Assembly: GCA_903886275.1 (NCBI GenBank)
Contig: CAISLN010000119.1
Location: 1 to 64,000, forward strand
DNA length: 64,000 bases
Direction of reading: 5' to 3'
From: an uncultured beta proteobacterium
GTDB taxonomy: Bacteria; Pseudomonadota; Gammaproteobacteria; Burkholderiales; Burkholderiaceae_C
Below, one piece after another: positions 33,767-59,498 of this stretch. The notes below the pieces were generated by a model. It was not told where the DNA came from. It saw only the letters and a list, made by a program, of their open reading frames with translations, and searched no databases. A program made the translations under genes and the position numbers. Each line of letters starts with the position of its first letter. Within the stretch, counting starts at the first letter, position 1.

Positions 33767-35227
33767 ATGATTTCTCGCGAACCCACCATCGAACGCCTGG
33801 CCACGGCCAAAGCCCTGTTGCTCACCCCCTTTGGTCTGGATGAAACCCATCTGGCCCGTGCCCTGAATGAAATCAAGGCGCACAAGGTGGACGAGGCCGA
33901 TCTCTACTTTCAGTACACCCGCTCCGAGGGCTGGAGCCTGGAGGAGGGCATCGTCAAGACCGGGTCCTTTAGCATCGACCAGGGCGTGGGCGTGCGGGCG
34001 GTGAGCGGCGAGAAGACGGCCTTTGCCTATTCCGACGATATTTCCGAGGCCTCGCTGCTCGACGCGGCGCGCACCGTGCGCACCATCTCCGCCGCTGCCA
34101 AGTCGGCCCGCGTAAAGGCCGGCAAGCAAAAAATCGCCGCAGCCCGCAGCCTCTATACCGCGGTGGACCCGATCTCGACATTGGACAGCCAGGCCAAGGT
34201 GGACCTGTTGGGCCGAGTCGAGCGCATGGCCCGCGCCAAGGACCCGCGCGTGGCGCAGGTCATGGCCGGTCTGGCCGCCGAATACGACGTGGTGCTGGTG
34301 GCGCGCGCCGATGGCACGATTGCGGCCGATGTGCGCCCCTTGGTGCGCCTGTCGGTGACGGTGTTTGCAGAGCAAAAGGGCCGACGCGAAGTGGGCTCTG
34401 GCGGTGGCGGTGGCCGCTTTGGCTTGGCCTATTTCACCGATGCACAGATTCAGGAATATGTGGACCAGGCCGTGCATGCGGCGCTGACCAATCTGGACGC
34501 ACGACCGGCACCGGCTGGCGAGATGACGGTGGTGTTGGGCTCGGGTTGGCCCGGCATCCTCTTGCACGAGGCCATTGGCCACGGCTTGGAGGGCGACTTC
34601 AACCGCAAGGGGTCGAGTGCCTTTAGCGGTCGCATAGGCCAGCGCGTGGCGGCCAAGGGCGTGACCGTGCTCGACGACGGCACGCTGGCTGATCGCCGTG
34701 GCTCGCTCAATGTGGACGACGAGGGCAATGCCAGCCAGCGCAATGTGCTGATCGAGGACGGCATCCTCAAGGGCTATATCCAGGACAGCATGAACGCGCG
34801 CTTGATGGGCGTGGCACCCACCGGCAACGGTCGGCGCGAGAGCTATGCCCACATTCCAATGCCGCGCATGACCAACACCTACATGCTGGGCGGCGACAAG
34901 GCGCCCGAAGAAATCGTCAAGAGCATTAAGAAGGGCCTATACGCCACCAACTTCGGTGGTGGCCAGGTGGACATCACCTCGGGCAAGTTTGTCTTTTCCG
35001 CCAGCGAGGCCTACTGGGTGGAAAACGGCAAGATCCTGTACCCGGTCAAGGGCGCCACCATCGTGGGCAGCGGCCCGGAATGCCTGAAACGCGTCAGCAT
35101 GATCGGCAACGACATGAAGCTCGACAGCGGTGTGGGCACCTGTGGCAAGGAAGGCCAAAGCGTGCCGGTGGGCGTGGGTCAACCCACCCTGCGCATTGAC
35201 GGCTTGACCGTAGGCGGCACGGCTTAA
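33767..35227 (+). CDS. tldD: metalloprotease TldD
   Basis: [46 protein letters not shown]. Confidence 0.95.
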
Positions 35228-35239
35228 AAGCGACTTAGC

Positions 35240-35956
35240 GTGCGTCCGTTTTTCGCGGGTGCGCGCGACACCTTCCCGATGCTGGTGGGGGCTGCACCCT
35301 TTGGCGTGATCTTCGGCACCCTGGCCATTGGCAGTGGCCTGCCGGTCTGGCTGACGCTGGGTATGTCGCTGCTGGTGTTTGGCGGCTCCTCCCAGTTTGT
35401 GGCGGTCAGTCTGATCAGCAGCGGTGCTGCATTGCCGGTGATCTGGCTCACCACCTTTGTGGTCAACCTGCGCCATGCGCTTTACAGCGCCACGCTGCTG
35501 CCCTATGCGCGTGAGTTACCGGCGCGCTGGCGCTGGGCCCTGGCCTTCTGGCTCACGGATGAAACCTTTGCGGTGGTGGAAAACCAGTTGCGCCACCCTA
35601 CCGATGCCAAGGACGGCAGCTGGTACTGGCTGGGCTCATCGCTGGCCATGTACTTCAATTGGCAGCTCTGGACGCTTGTGGGCGTGGTGTTGGGCCAGAG
35701 TGCGCCCATGCTCGCCACGCTGGGCCTGGACTTCGCCATGGTCGCCACCTTTGCGGCCATCGTCGCCATGCAACTGCATGCGCGCCCGGTGCTGTTTGCG
35801 GCATTGGTGGCCGGCACGGTGGCGCTGCTGGCGCGTGAGCTGCCCTACAAGCTGGGCCTGATGCTGGCGGCAATGGCCGGCGTGGCTGCCGGGGTGATGA
35901 CCGAGAAGTTGTCAGAGCGCGTGAGCCGCGCCGCAGAGCCGCAGGCCCTGCCATGA
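35240..35956 (+). CDS. azlC: AzlC-family branched-chain amino acid exporter subunit
   Basis: [53 protein letters not shown]. Confidence 0.9.
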
Positions 35957-36288
35957 ACGGCTACACGAACGCCGAATCGGCCCTGATCCTGATGGGTATG
36001 GTGCTGGTCACCTACGGTATACGCCTGAGCTTTTTGGTATTCGGTCACAGGGCCGCGTTTCCAGAATGGCTCAAGCGCGCCCTGCGCTATGTGCCGGCGG
36101 CCGTGCTGACGGCCCTCATCGTGCCAATGGCGTTGGCGCCGCAGGGTGCTGTGGATGTGTCGCTGCACAACGCCTATCTGCCCGGCACCATCGCGGCCGT
36201 GGCTGTGGCGCTGTGGACGCGCCAGACACTGGCGGCCATATTGGGTGGCTTTGTGGTCTACGGCCTGTGGCGCTGGTGGGTGGCCTGA
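35953..36288 (+). CDS. azlD: AzlD-family branched-chain amino acid exporter subunit
   Basis: [48 protein letters not shown]; overlaps azlC. Confidence 0.88.
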
Positions 36289-36325
36289 AAGTTCTGCGTT
36301 AAAGACATGTGCTACATTGGCCGCT

Positions 36326-36394
36326 ATGCATTCAGCAGCTTTTTTCTTTGGCTATTTTTGGTTCTCATGCGCCGGCGGCGATAGAGAGATCTGA
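36326..36394 (+). CDS. 22-aa leader peptide MHSAAFFFGYFWFSCAGGDREI (Phe/Tyr/Trp-rich) of the aroG attenuator
   Basis: ATG CAT TCA GCA GCT TTT TTC TTT GGC TAT TTT TGG TTC ... TGA; 5 Phe, 1 Tyr and 1 Trp within 8 codons, followed by a hairpin terminator before aroG. Confidence 0.85.
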   Translation: MHSAAFFFGYFWFSCAGGDREI

Positions 36395-36454
36395 ACGTAC
36401 CTGAGAAAAGTACCGAATCTTCCTAAAACCGCCGGCAACCCCGGCGGTTTTTTT
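36371..36454 (+). promoter_or_regulatory. transcription attenuator region upstream of aroG (antiterminator/terminator alternative)
   Basis: GCCGGCGG (36371-36378) is perfectly complementary to CCGCCGGC (36429-36436), the 5' arm of the terminator. Confidence 0.75.
36426..36454 (+). terminator. intrinsic terminator (attenuator) before aroG
   Basis: AAACCGCCGG-CAACC-CCGGCGGTTT followed by TTTT; 10-bp perfect stem. Confidence 0.9.
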
Positions 36455-36485
36455 ATGTGTGTTTGTTTAACCCAGGGAAAAGCCC

Positions 36486-37583
36486 ATGACCACCAAAGCC
36501 CATACCAGTGCCGACCGCACCGGCATTACCGACGACGAACGCATCAAGGACATCACCGTGCTGCCACCTCCCGAGCATCTGGTTCGCTTTTTCCCAATCC
36601 AGGGCACGGCCGTCGAAAAGCTGATCGCCGACACCCGCCACGCCATTCACAACATCATGGCCGGCAAGGATGACCGACTGCTGGTCATCATCGGCCCCTG
36701 CTCCATCCATGATCCCGCAGCCGCCGTGGAATACGCCCGCCGCCTGAAGGAAATGCGCGTGAAATACGCCGACACGCTGGAAATCGTGATGCGCGTGTAC
36801 TTCGAGAAGCCCCGCACCACCGTGGGCTGGAAGGGCCTGATCAACGACCCCTACCTCGATGAGAGCTTTCGCATCGACGAAGGCCTGCGCATTGCGCGCC
36901 AACTGCTCATCGAGATCAACCGCCTGGGCCTGCCCGCCGGAAGTGAATTTTTGGACGTGATCTCGCCCCAGTACCTGGGTGATTTGATTTCCTGGGGTGC
37001 CATTGGCGCGCGCACCACCGAGAGCCAGGTGCACCGCGAGCTGGCCTCTGGCCTGTCGGCACCGATTGGTTTCAAGAACGGCACCGACGGCAATATCCGC
37101 ATTGCCACCGACGCTATTCAGGCCGCTGGCGGCGCCCACCATTTCTTGTCGGTGCACAAGAATGGCCAGGTGGCGATTGTGCAGACCAAGGGCAACAAGG
37201 ATTGCCACGTGATTTTGCGCGGCGGCAAGGCGCCCAACTACGACGCAGCCAGTGTGGCGGCAGCCTGTGCCGAGCTGGAAAAATCCAAGTTGCCGGCTAC
37301 GCTGATGGTGGACTGCAGCCACGCCAACAGCAGCAAACAGCATGAAAAGCAGCTGGAAGTGGCGCGCGACATCGCGGCCCAAATCAGCGCCGGCTCAAAG
37401 AGCGTGTTTGGCGTGATGGTGGAGAGCCATCTGCAAGCCGGGGCGCAAAAGTTCACACCCGGCAAGGACGATTCCGCCAAGCTGGAATACGGCAAGAGCA
37501 TTACCGATGCCTGCCTGGGCTGGGACGATTCACTGGCCGCGCTGGAAGTGTTGTCACAGGCCGTGAAGGCGCGTCGCGGTTAA
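36486..37583 (+). CDS. aroG: 3-deoxy-7-phosphoheptulonate (DAHP) synthase, AroF/G/H family
   Basis: LLVIIGPCSIHDPAAAVEYA, VYFEKPRTTVGWKGLINDPYLD, PATLMVDCSHANSSKQ. Confidence 0.96.
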   Translation: MTTKAHTSADRTGITDDERIKDITVLPPPEHLVRFFPIQGTAVEKLIADTRHAIHNIMAGKDDRLLVIIGPCSIHDPAAAVEYARRLKEMRVKYADTLEIVMRVYFEKPRTTVGWKGLINDPYLDESFRIDEGLRIARQLLIEINRLGLPAGSEFLDVISPQYLGDLISWGAIGARTTESQVHRELASGLSAPIGFKNGTDGNIRIATDAIQAAGGAHHFLSVHKNGQVAIVQTKGNKDCHVILRGGKAPNYDAASVAAACAELEKSKLPATLMVDCSHANSSKQHEKQLEVARDIAAQISAGSKSVFGVMVESHLQAGAQKFTPGKDDSAKLEYGKSITDACLGWDDSLAALEVLSQAVKARRG

Positions 37584-59421: not shown

Positions 59422-59498
59422 TGGTGGTGATAGGTGGATTTGAACCACCGACATCAGCATTATGAATGCTGCGCTCTAACCAACTGAGCTATATCACC
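59422..59498 (-). tRNA. tRNA-Met (anticodon CAT), 3' CCA encoded
   Basis: GGTGATATAGCTCAGTTGGTTAGAGCGCAGCATTCATAATGCTGATGTCGGTGGTTCAAATCCACCTATCACCACCA; 7-bp acceptor stem GGTGATA/TATCACC. Confidence 0.96.

Follow-up and report, generated by a model that had tools for sequence, protein, structure and literature searches.

DAHP synthase is the first enzyme of the aromatic pathway and forms its entry point, and in Escherichia coli its expression is under the control of the repressors TyrR and TrpR. The gene aroG, which encodes such an enzyme in a 64-kb stretch of DNA from an uncultured beta proteobacterium of the order Burkholderiales (the whole of this stretch is called the window below), raises the question of how the same step is governed here. 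A first-pass annotation, made from the letters of the window alone, had proposed that a leader peptide coded by Phe, Tyr and Trp codons and an adjoining terminator act together as an attenuator of aroG, and had set this against TyrR control in E. coli; the contrast fits, in that the genome to which the window belongs gave no match to a TyrR-type HTH domain in a search whose control recovered that of E. coli. The product of aroG is a class I DAHP synthase whose best relatives in the PDB are structures of the Phe-sensitive DAHP synthase of E. coli (E about 1e-140). Two other loci of the same genome encode AroF/G/H-type DAHP synthases (L002 and L003), and neither has such a leader. Between tldD (33767-35227) and the aroG leader, at 35240-36288, lie an azlC-like gene (TIGR00346, 75.5 bits, a weak match below the cut-off) and a 111-aa membrane-type ORF that is probably azlD; elsewhere in the window a tRNA gene is found on the minus strand at 59425-59498 (Rfam RF00005, 76.4 bits). 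The features that bear on the control of aroG are collected in Table 1.

Table 1. Features of the aroG leader region, numbered from the first letter of the window.
Feature	Position	Strand	Remark
Extended -10 promoter element, TGTGCTACATT	36308..36318	+	Putative promoter, from its position and conservation
Leader ORF, MHSAAFFFGYFWFSCAGGDREI*	36326..36394	+	ATG at 36326, TGA at 36392-36394; probably translated from a leaderless mRNA; aromatic block kept in relatives
Control codons, TTT TTC TTT GGC TAT TTT TGG TTC	36341..36364	+	Predicted stall sites (Phe/Tyr/Trp)
Strand 1:2 hairpin, UUCUC..CGCC / GGCG..GAGAG	36362..36388	+	36362-36373 with 36377-36388
Strand 2, GCCGGCGG	36371..36378	+	5' partner of the antiterminator; exact complement of 36429-36436
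Intrinsic terminator, strands 3:4	36425..36454	+	11-bp stem AAAACCGCCGG/CCGGCGGTTTT with 5-nt loop (36425-36451), T-run (36448-36454); 5' arm 36429-36436 is strand 3
aroG, DAHP synthase (365 aa)	36486..37583	+	Regulated gene; TIGR00034 aroFGH, 540.7 bits against a cut-off of 173.2

The leader ORF and its run of aromatic codons, seven Phe, Tyr or Trp codons in eight upstream of aroG, were found where the first-pass annotation had placed them, and so was the gap of 31 nt that it had given between the terminator and the ATG of aroG. Among all ORFs of 10-45 aa on both strands of the 64-kb window, the leader ORF alone has at least six aromatic residues in ten, and no ORF with at least seven in ten arose in 40 second-order Markov copies of the window. 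An overlapping ORF (36307-36384, MCYIGRYAFSSFFLWLFLVLMRRRR) was dismissed because relatives do not, in general, preserve its reading frame. A short ORF with codons for the products of the pathway, which an attenuator requires, is present in 80 Comamonadaceae-type leaders and in about 79 leaders of a wider set. Phe is encoded in 159 of 159 leaders, Tyr in 154 and Trp in 104, and at the aromatic positions the three residues interchange. In both sets the aromatic codons are concentrated at codons -12 to -4 relative to a GGCGG motif in strand 2, and their share falls to 0-6% at codons -3 to -1.

The first-pass annotation had counted loss of the aromatic run in relatives among the findings that would speak against its proposal, and had pointed to other Burkholderiales as the place to look for similar leaders; the run is conserved, and such leaders are found there. 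For comparison with near relatives, 80 aroG loci were taken from genome contigs, and the leader occupies the same place in 79 of them, giving 80 Comamonadaceae-type leaders when the window is counted; at the remaining locus (L007) no leader is present within the 178 nt available upstream of the predicted aroG start. The consensus reads F(F/Y)F(G/S/A)YFWFS followed by UUCUCAAGCGCC-NNN-GGCGGUAGAGAG, with a stop codon soon after, then a stretch of less conserved RNA, and then AACCGCCGG-loop-CCGGCGGTT and a T-run; in the predicted 1:2 hairpin, the highly variable NNN makes up the loop. At E<=0.01, R1, a covariance model that spans leader and terminator and contains no aroG sequence, matched 72 of the 300 genomes searched in the order. 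At each of its 30 best loci, and at 67 of the 69 matches inspected besides the window, aroG follows directly. In the genome of the window, the model from relatives matches the site described here at E=5e-22, the next best match having E=2.4, and the leader is present in all ten genomes sampled from the same family. A second model (R2), built from 65 diverse sequences, matched 78 of 300 genomes of the order, in 14 families, at E<=1e-7, together with four genomes from elsewhere in the class, belonging to two more families, and its additional strong matches also precede aroG. The weaker R2 matches that were checked, those with E above about 5e-7, stand without aroG, many of them covering the terminator part only, and were discarded; the raw R2 tallies of 180/300 and 85/292 therefore overstate the spread. 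AroG of this kind is encoded in 202 of the 300 genomes of the order, about 60% of which have no detectable leader (78 against 202), so that the leader, though common, is by no means universal.

Several individual loci deserve mention. One genome (G149, family f31) has two aroG genes, on contigs C15 and C170, and the leader precedes the copy 63% identical to aroG of the window, not the copy that is 75% identical (C15). Two loci of family f43, L181 and L185, keep the GGCGG motif and the terminator and have lost most aromatic codons: L185 encodes the peptide MHASPRPLRFCRPRSTAVGRQ, while L181 is without recognisable aromatic codons, and two further loci of the same genus (L161 and L164) have weak aromatic runs. 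Decay or re-tuning of the switch is possible in L181 and L185. Four genomes outside the order (L170-L173, families f60 and f65) have the same leader, terminator and aroG; their AroG sequences fall within a tree group with family f4 of the order, a placement that may reflect horizontal transfer.

An intrinsic terminator between leader ORF and structural gene is a second feature required of an attenuator, and one with a T-run lies there as first annotated, except that its stem has 11 bp and not 10. The perfect complementarity of GCCGGCGG at 36371-36378 to CCGCCGGC at 36429-36436, on which the first-pass annotation had built its switch, holds over all 8 bp, so that strand 3 can pair with strand 2 or with strand 4. 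These alternatives are preserved together. Core pairs of the terminator are present in 49-50 of 50 aligned relatives and in 96.5% of cells of 65 wider sequences, the 2:3 pairing in 89-93% of cells among relatives, and the 1:2 hairpin in 90.7% of cells in 50 relatives. Strands 2, 3 and 4 are nearly invariant within Comamonadaceae, and hence no covariation is seen within that family: RNAalifold on the Comamonadaceae alignment yielded the terminator only, with almost no covariation, which made the wider set necessary. Columns 163-177 of the wide alignment, a terminator pair, have A-U in 31 rows and G-C in 31, and columns 78-163, a 2:3 pair that involves the same terminator base, have C-G in 21 rows and U-A in 21; no shuffle out of 500 attained the double-sided changes, which number 38 for the terminator pair and 23 for the 2:3 pair. 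Positions -1 and -3 before GGCGG track the terminator in this set, and position -2 shows no covariation with it. In the aligned sequences, then, the 5' arm of the terminator co-varies both with its 3' arm and with the GGCGG segment, as mutually exclusive structures require. Independent changes are few: a tree of 96 AroG sequences requires at least five changes of the terminator base, and in independent contrasts the leader follows the terminator in 3-4 of five and never goes the opposite way, an underpowered comparison that is not significant.

The probable start of the transcript had been overlooked by the first-pass annotation, whose attenuator logic is largely supported. In the window, the -10 element lies 7 nt before the leader AUG, which has no Shine-Dalgarno site. 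The element TGTGCTACATT is the sole conserved block upstream of the leader ATG at 79 Comamonadaceae-type loci, its end being 6, 7 and 8 nt from the ATG in 15, 46 and 18 of them, respectively; thus TANNNT stands 6-8 nt before the ATG in 79/79 of these leaders, and an SD-like sequence in 0/79. The wider set has TANNNT at this distance in 34 of 77 leaders and an SD-like sequence in five of 77. For comparison, the starts of aroG itself have an SD-like sequence in 119 of 166 cases and TANNNT at 6-8 nt in none of 166. The 11-mer TGTGCTACATT occurs only once in its own genome. A scan for the sigma-70 consensus with both hexamers gave no match here, and the promoter was found through the alignment. 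Given a -10 element 6-8 nt before the AUG and no Shine-Dalgarno sequence, the leader mRNA is probably leaderless, with a predicted transcription start at the leader AUG or within 1-2 nt of it. Leaderless transcripts with a TA-rich motif immediately upstream are documented in Burkholderia cenocepacia (PMC4603805).

The conservation of the leader might in principle reside in its peptide. The tail GGRE(I/F) is nearly invariant in Comamonadaceae, and the product could itself be the sensor through its C-terminal SxAxGGRE(I/F), either as an arrest peptide or as a small protein with a function of its own, working within the ribosome tunnel or in trans and not through codon-dependent stalling. The wider set argues otherwise. 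GGCGG is read in all three frames, its offsets from the stop codon covering all three residues modulo 3: as GGC GGT in Comamonadaceae, and as CTG GCG GAG or ACG GCG GTC in others, so that other families end the same RNA in LAE, TAV or PRR-type tails. In L008 and L058 a one-base deletion shifts the frame and leaves the motif, and with it the RNA, intact, L028, L033, L064 and L072 have a TGA inside the motif, and in some Acidovorax-type leaders such a TGA is in frame. The use of all three frames and these internal stops together indicate that GGCGG is conserved as RNA and not as peptide. With the exchange of Phe, Tyr and Trp that is tolerated at the aromatic positions, they leave a peptide sensor very unlikely. 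On comparative grounds, the 3' part of the leader is kept as nucleotide sequence, and the upstream part as aromatic codons among which Phe, Tyr and Trp exchange. In L028, L033, L064 and L072 the stop TGA lies within strand 2 (GGCGGATGAGAG), so that a ribosome terminating there would itself occupy the antiterminator segment.

The placement of the codons was assessed by folding simulation in 158 leaders, with a ribosome footprint imposed that reached from 16 nt upstream of the A site to 12 nt downstream of it, and with a transcript ending after strand 3. For a stall 1-3 codons before the last aromatic codon, the mean 2:3 pairing was 0.94-0.96 in Comamonadaceae and 0.81 in the wide set; on the last aromatic codon it was 0.84 and 0.59, respectively, and two codons past it 0.05. 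The drop after the aromatic block stems partly from the assumed footprint, and the informative part of the result is the position of the codons: in the simulation, the aromatic run ends at the edge where the antiterminator is lost. The control codons are thus placed so that a stalled ribosome would free strand 2 and an advancing one would cover it. When leaders were folded without a ribosome, 47 of 80 favoured other pairings and 33, the window included, favoured 2:3; this mixed outcome leaves the role of the 1:2 hairpin uncertain. The window sequence itself favoured the antiterminator without a ribosome (P about 0.9-1.0), and termination without translation is therefore not assured in it.

Computation from the sequences has shown the leader and terminator, the complementarity through which strands compete, the way in which these features are conserved and co-vary together, and where the codons sit; these results point to a ribosome-mediated transcription attenuator of aroG, a reading to which we give a probability of about 0.92. 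The attenuation logic of the first-pass annotation thus finds support in conservation, in position, in RNA covariation and in folding simulation. Transcription would start from the extended -10 promoter at or beside the leader AUG, and RNA polymerase would transcribe the leader with a ribosome close behind. With charged aromatic tRNA plentiful, the ribosome would clear the aromatic block and cover GGCGG in strand 2, the 3:4 terminator would form and transcription would stop. With charged aromatic tRNA scarce, the predicted stall on the aromatic codons would leave strand 2 free to pair with strand 3, no terminator would form, and the resulting read-through would allow aroG to be transcribed. 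There would be nothing unusual about a terminator after azlD, and it might be supposed that this one merely ends the upstream genes (azlC-azlD or tldD) constitutively, the aromatic ORF being incidental. Such an arrangement is exceedingly unlikely: relatives keep leader, spacing and terminator together with aroG while differing in sequence farther upstream, shuffled windows yielded no comparable chance ORF, and the GGCGG segment co-varies with the terminator arm. It is hardly more credible that Rho, an RNA-binding protein or a riboswitch acts on the same terminator. Nothing specific speaks for any of these, and no Rfam family reaches threshold at the leader; moreover, the conserved structure is confined to the competing strands adjoining the aromatic-codon run, with little room for an aptamer between the AUG and strand 1.

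If attenuation is accepted, it is less clear which of Phe, Tyr and Trp provides the presumed signal. It is quite possible, without being probable, that the switch has essentially one input, most likely Phe, the Tyr and Trp codons being bystanders or minor contributors. Phe alone is present in every leader (159/159, against 154 for Tyr and 104 for Trp), the enzyme itself most resembles Phe-sensitive AroG, and the aroR leader of Corynebacterium glutamicum, which encodes Phe-Tyr-Phe, is reported to respond to limitation of Phe only (PMC11802643). Against this, the Comamonadaceae set has Trp or Phe at codon -6 and mostly Tyr at codon -8, near the switch point, and a ribosome stalled on any one of these codons would, by the geometry, leave strand 2 free. 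It is about as possible that a single, leaderless leader gene is a three-input sensor: whichever of Phe-, Tyr- or Trp-tRNA ran short, the ribosome would stall within the one aromatic block and the enzyme at the gate of the common pathway would be opened. Such a sensor could replace TyrR control in Burkholderiales, its input set drifting (FYW, FY, mostly F) and the RNA switch remaining fixed. The reported lack of response to Tyr in the C. glutamicum aroR leader is the main ground for caution over three-way sensing.

A large part of one bacterial order appears to use a translated RNA switch for DAHP synthase where E. coli uses repressors, and the conserved promoter would make the transcript start right at the leader AUG. 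The leader family amounts to a natural series of Phe/Tyr/Trp mixtures before the same RNA switch, so that the weighing of several tRNAs by a multi-codon attenuator becomes directly testable; it could also be put to practical use where these bacteria are to produce aromatic compounds. An Rfam search at gathering and relaxed thresholds gave no family matching the aroG leader, and no earlier description of the leader family was found in the open-access literature, a search whose scope did not extend to the two surveys where one would be likeliest, Vitreschak 2004 (FEMS Microbiol Lett) and Lopatovskaya 2010 (Mol Biol), or to Table S3 of PMC5688073, a list of 82 short 5'UTRs of Burkholderia cenocepacia. 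The mechanism is the known one of classical ribosome-mediated attenuation; what is new is the widespread aroG leader family, set apart by a start that is probably leaderless and by a mixed set of codons that drifts between lineages.

Among characterised systems, pheL-pheA of enterobacteria and trpL-trpE share the 1:2 / 2:3 / 3:4 logic and have their control codons just upstream of strand 2, whereas the leader in the window controls aroG, mixes Phe, Tyr and Trp codons and appears to be leaderless. It is a member of neither corresponding Rfam family: against RF01859 (Phe_leader) the window scores 22.4 bits, with a gathering score of 55 and a match to 36400-36456 only, and against RF00513 (Trp_leader) 13.2 bits, with a gathering score of 41. 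The trpL attenuator of Sinorhizobium meliloti resembles it in having a transcript that starts at the leader AUG (PMC7298713), but that alphaproteobacterial system senses Trp only and controls trpE(G), and leaderless status in the present case is deduced from the position of the promoter. The predicted uORFC-13-1, upstream of aroF in Acholeplasma, likewise has Phe codons, adjoins a terminator and precedes a DAHP synthase gene, but comprises 24 sequences with at least one Phe codon in an unrelated lineage (PMC8632094). The nearest functional precedent is the aroR leader of C. glutamicum, a Phe-Tyr-Phe leader peptide before a DAHP synthase gene, where ribosome stalling under Phe limitation is reported to raise transcription of the aroF operon (Neshat et al. 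2014, as summarised in PMC11802643; PMC4046766). The aroR leader belongs to another phylum and has a much shorter aromatic run that lacks Trp.
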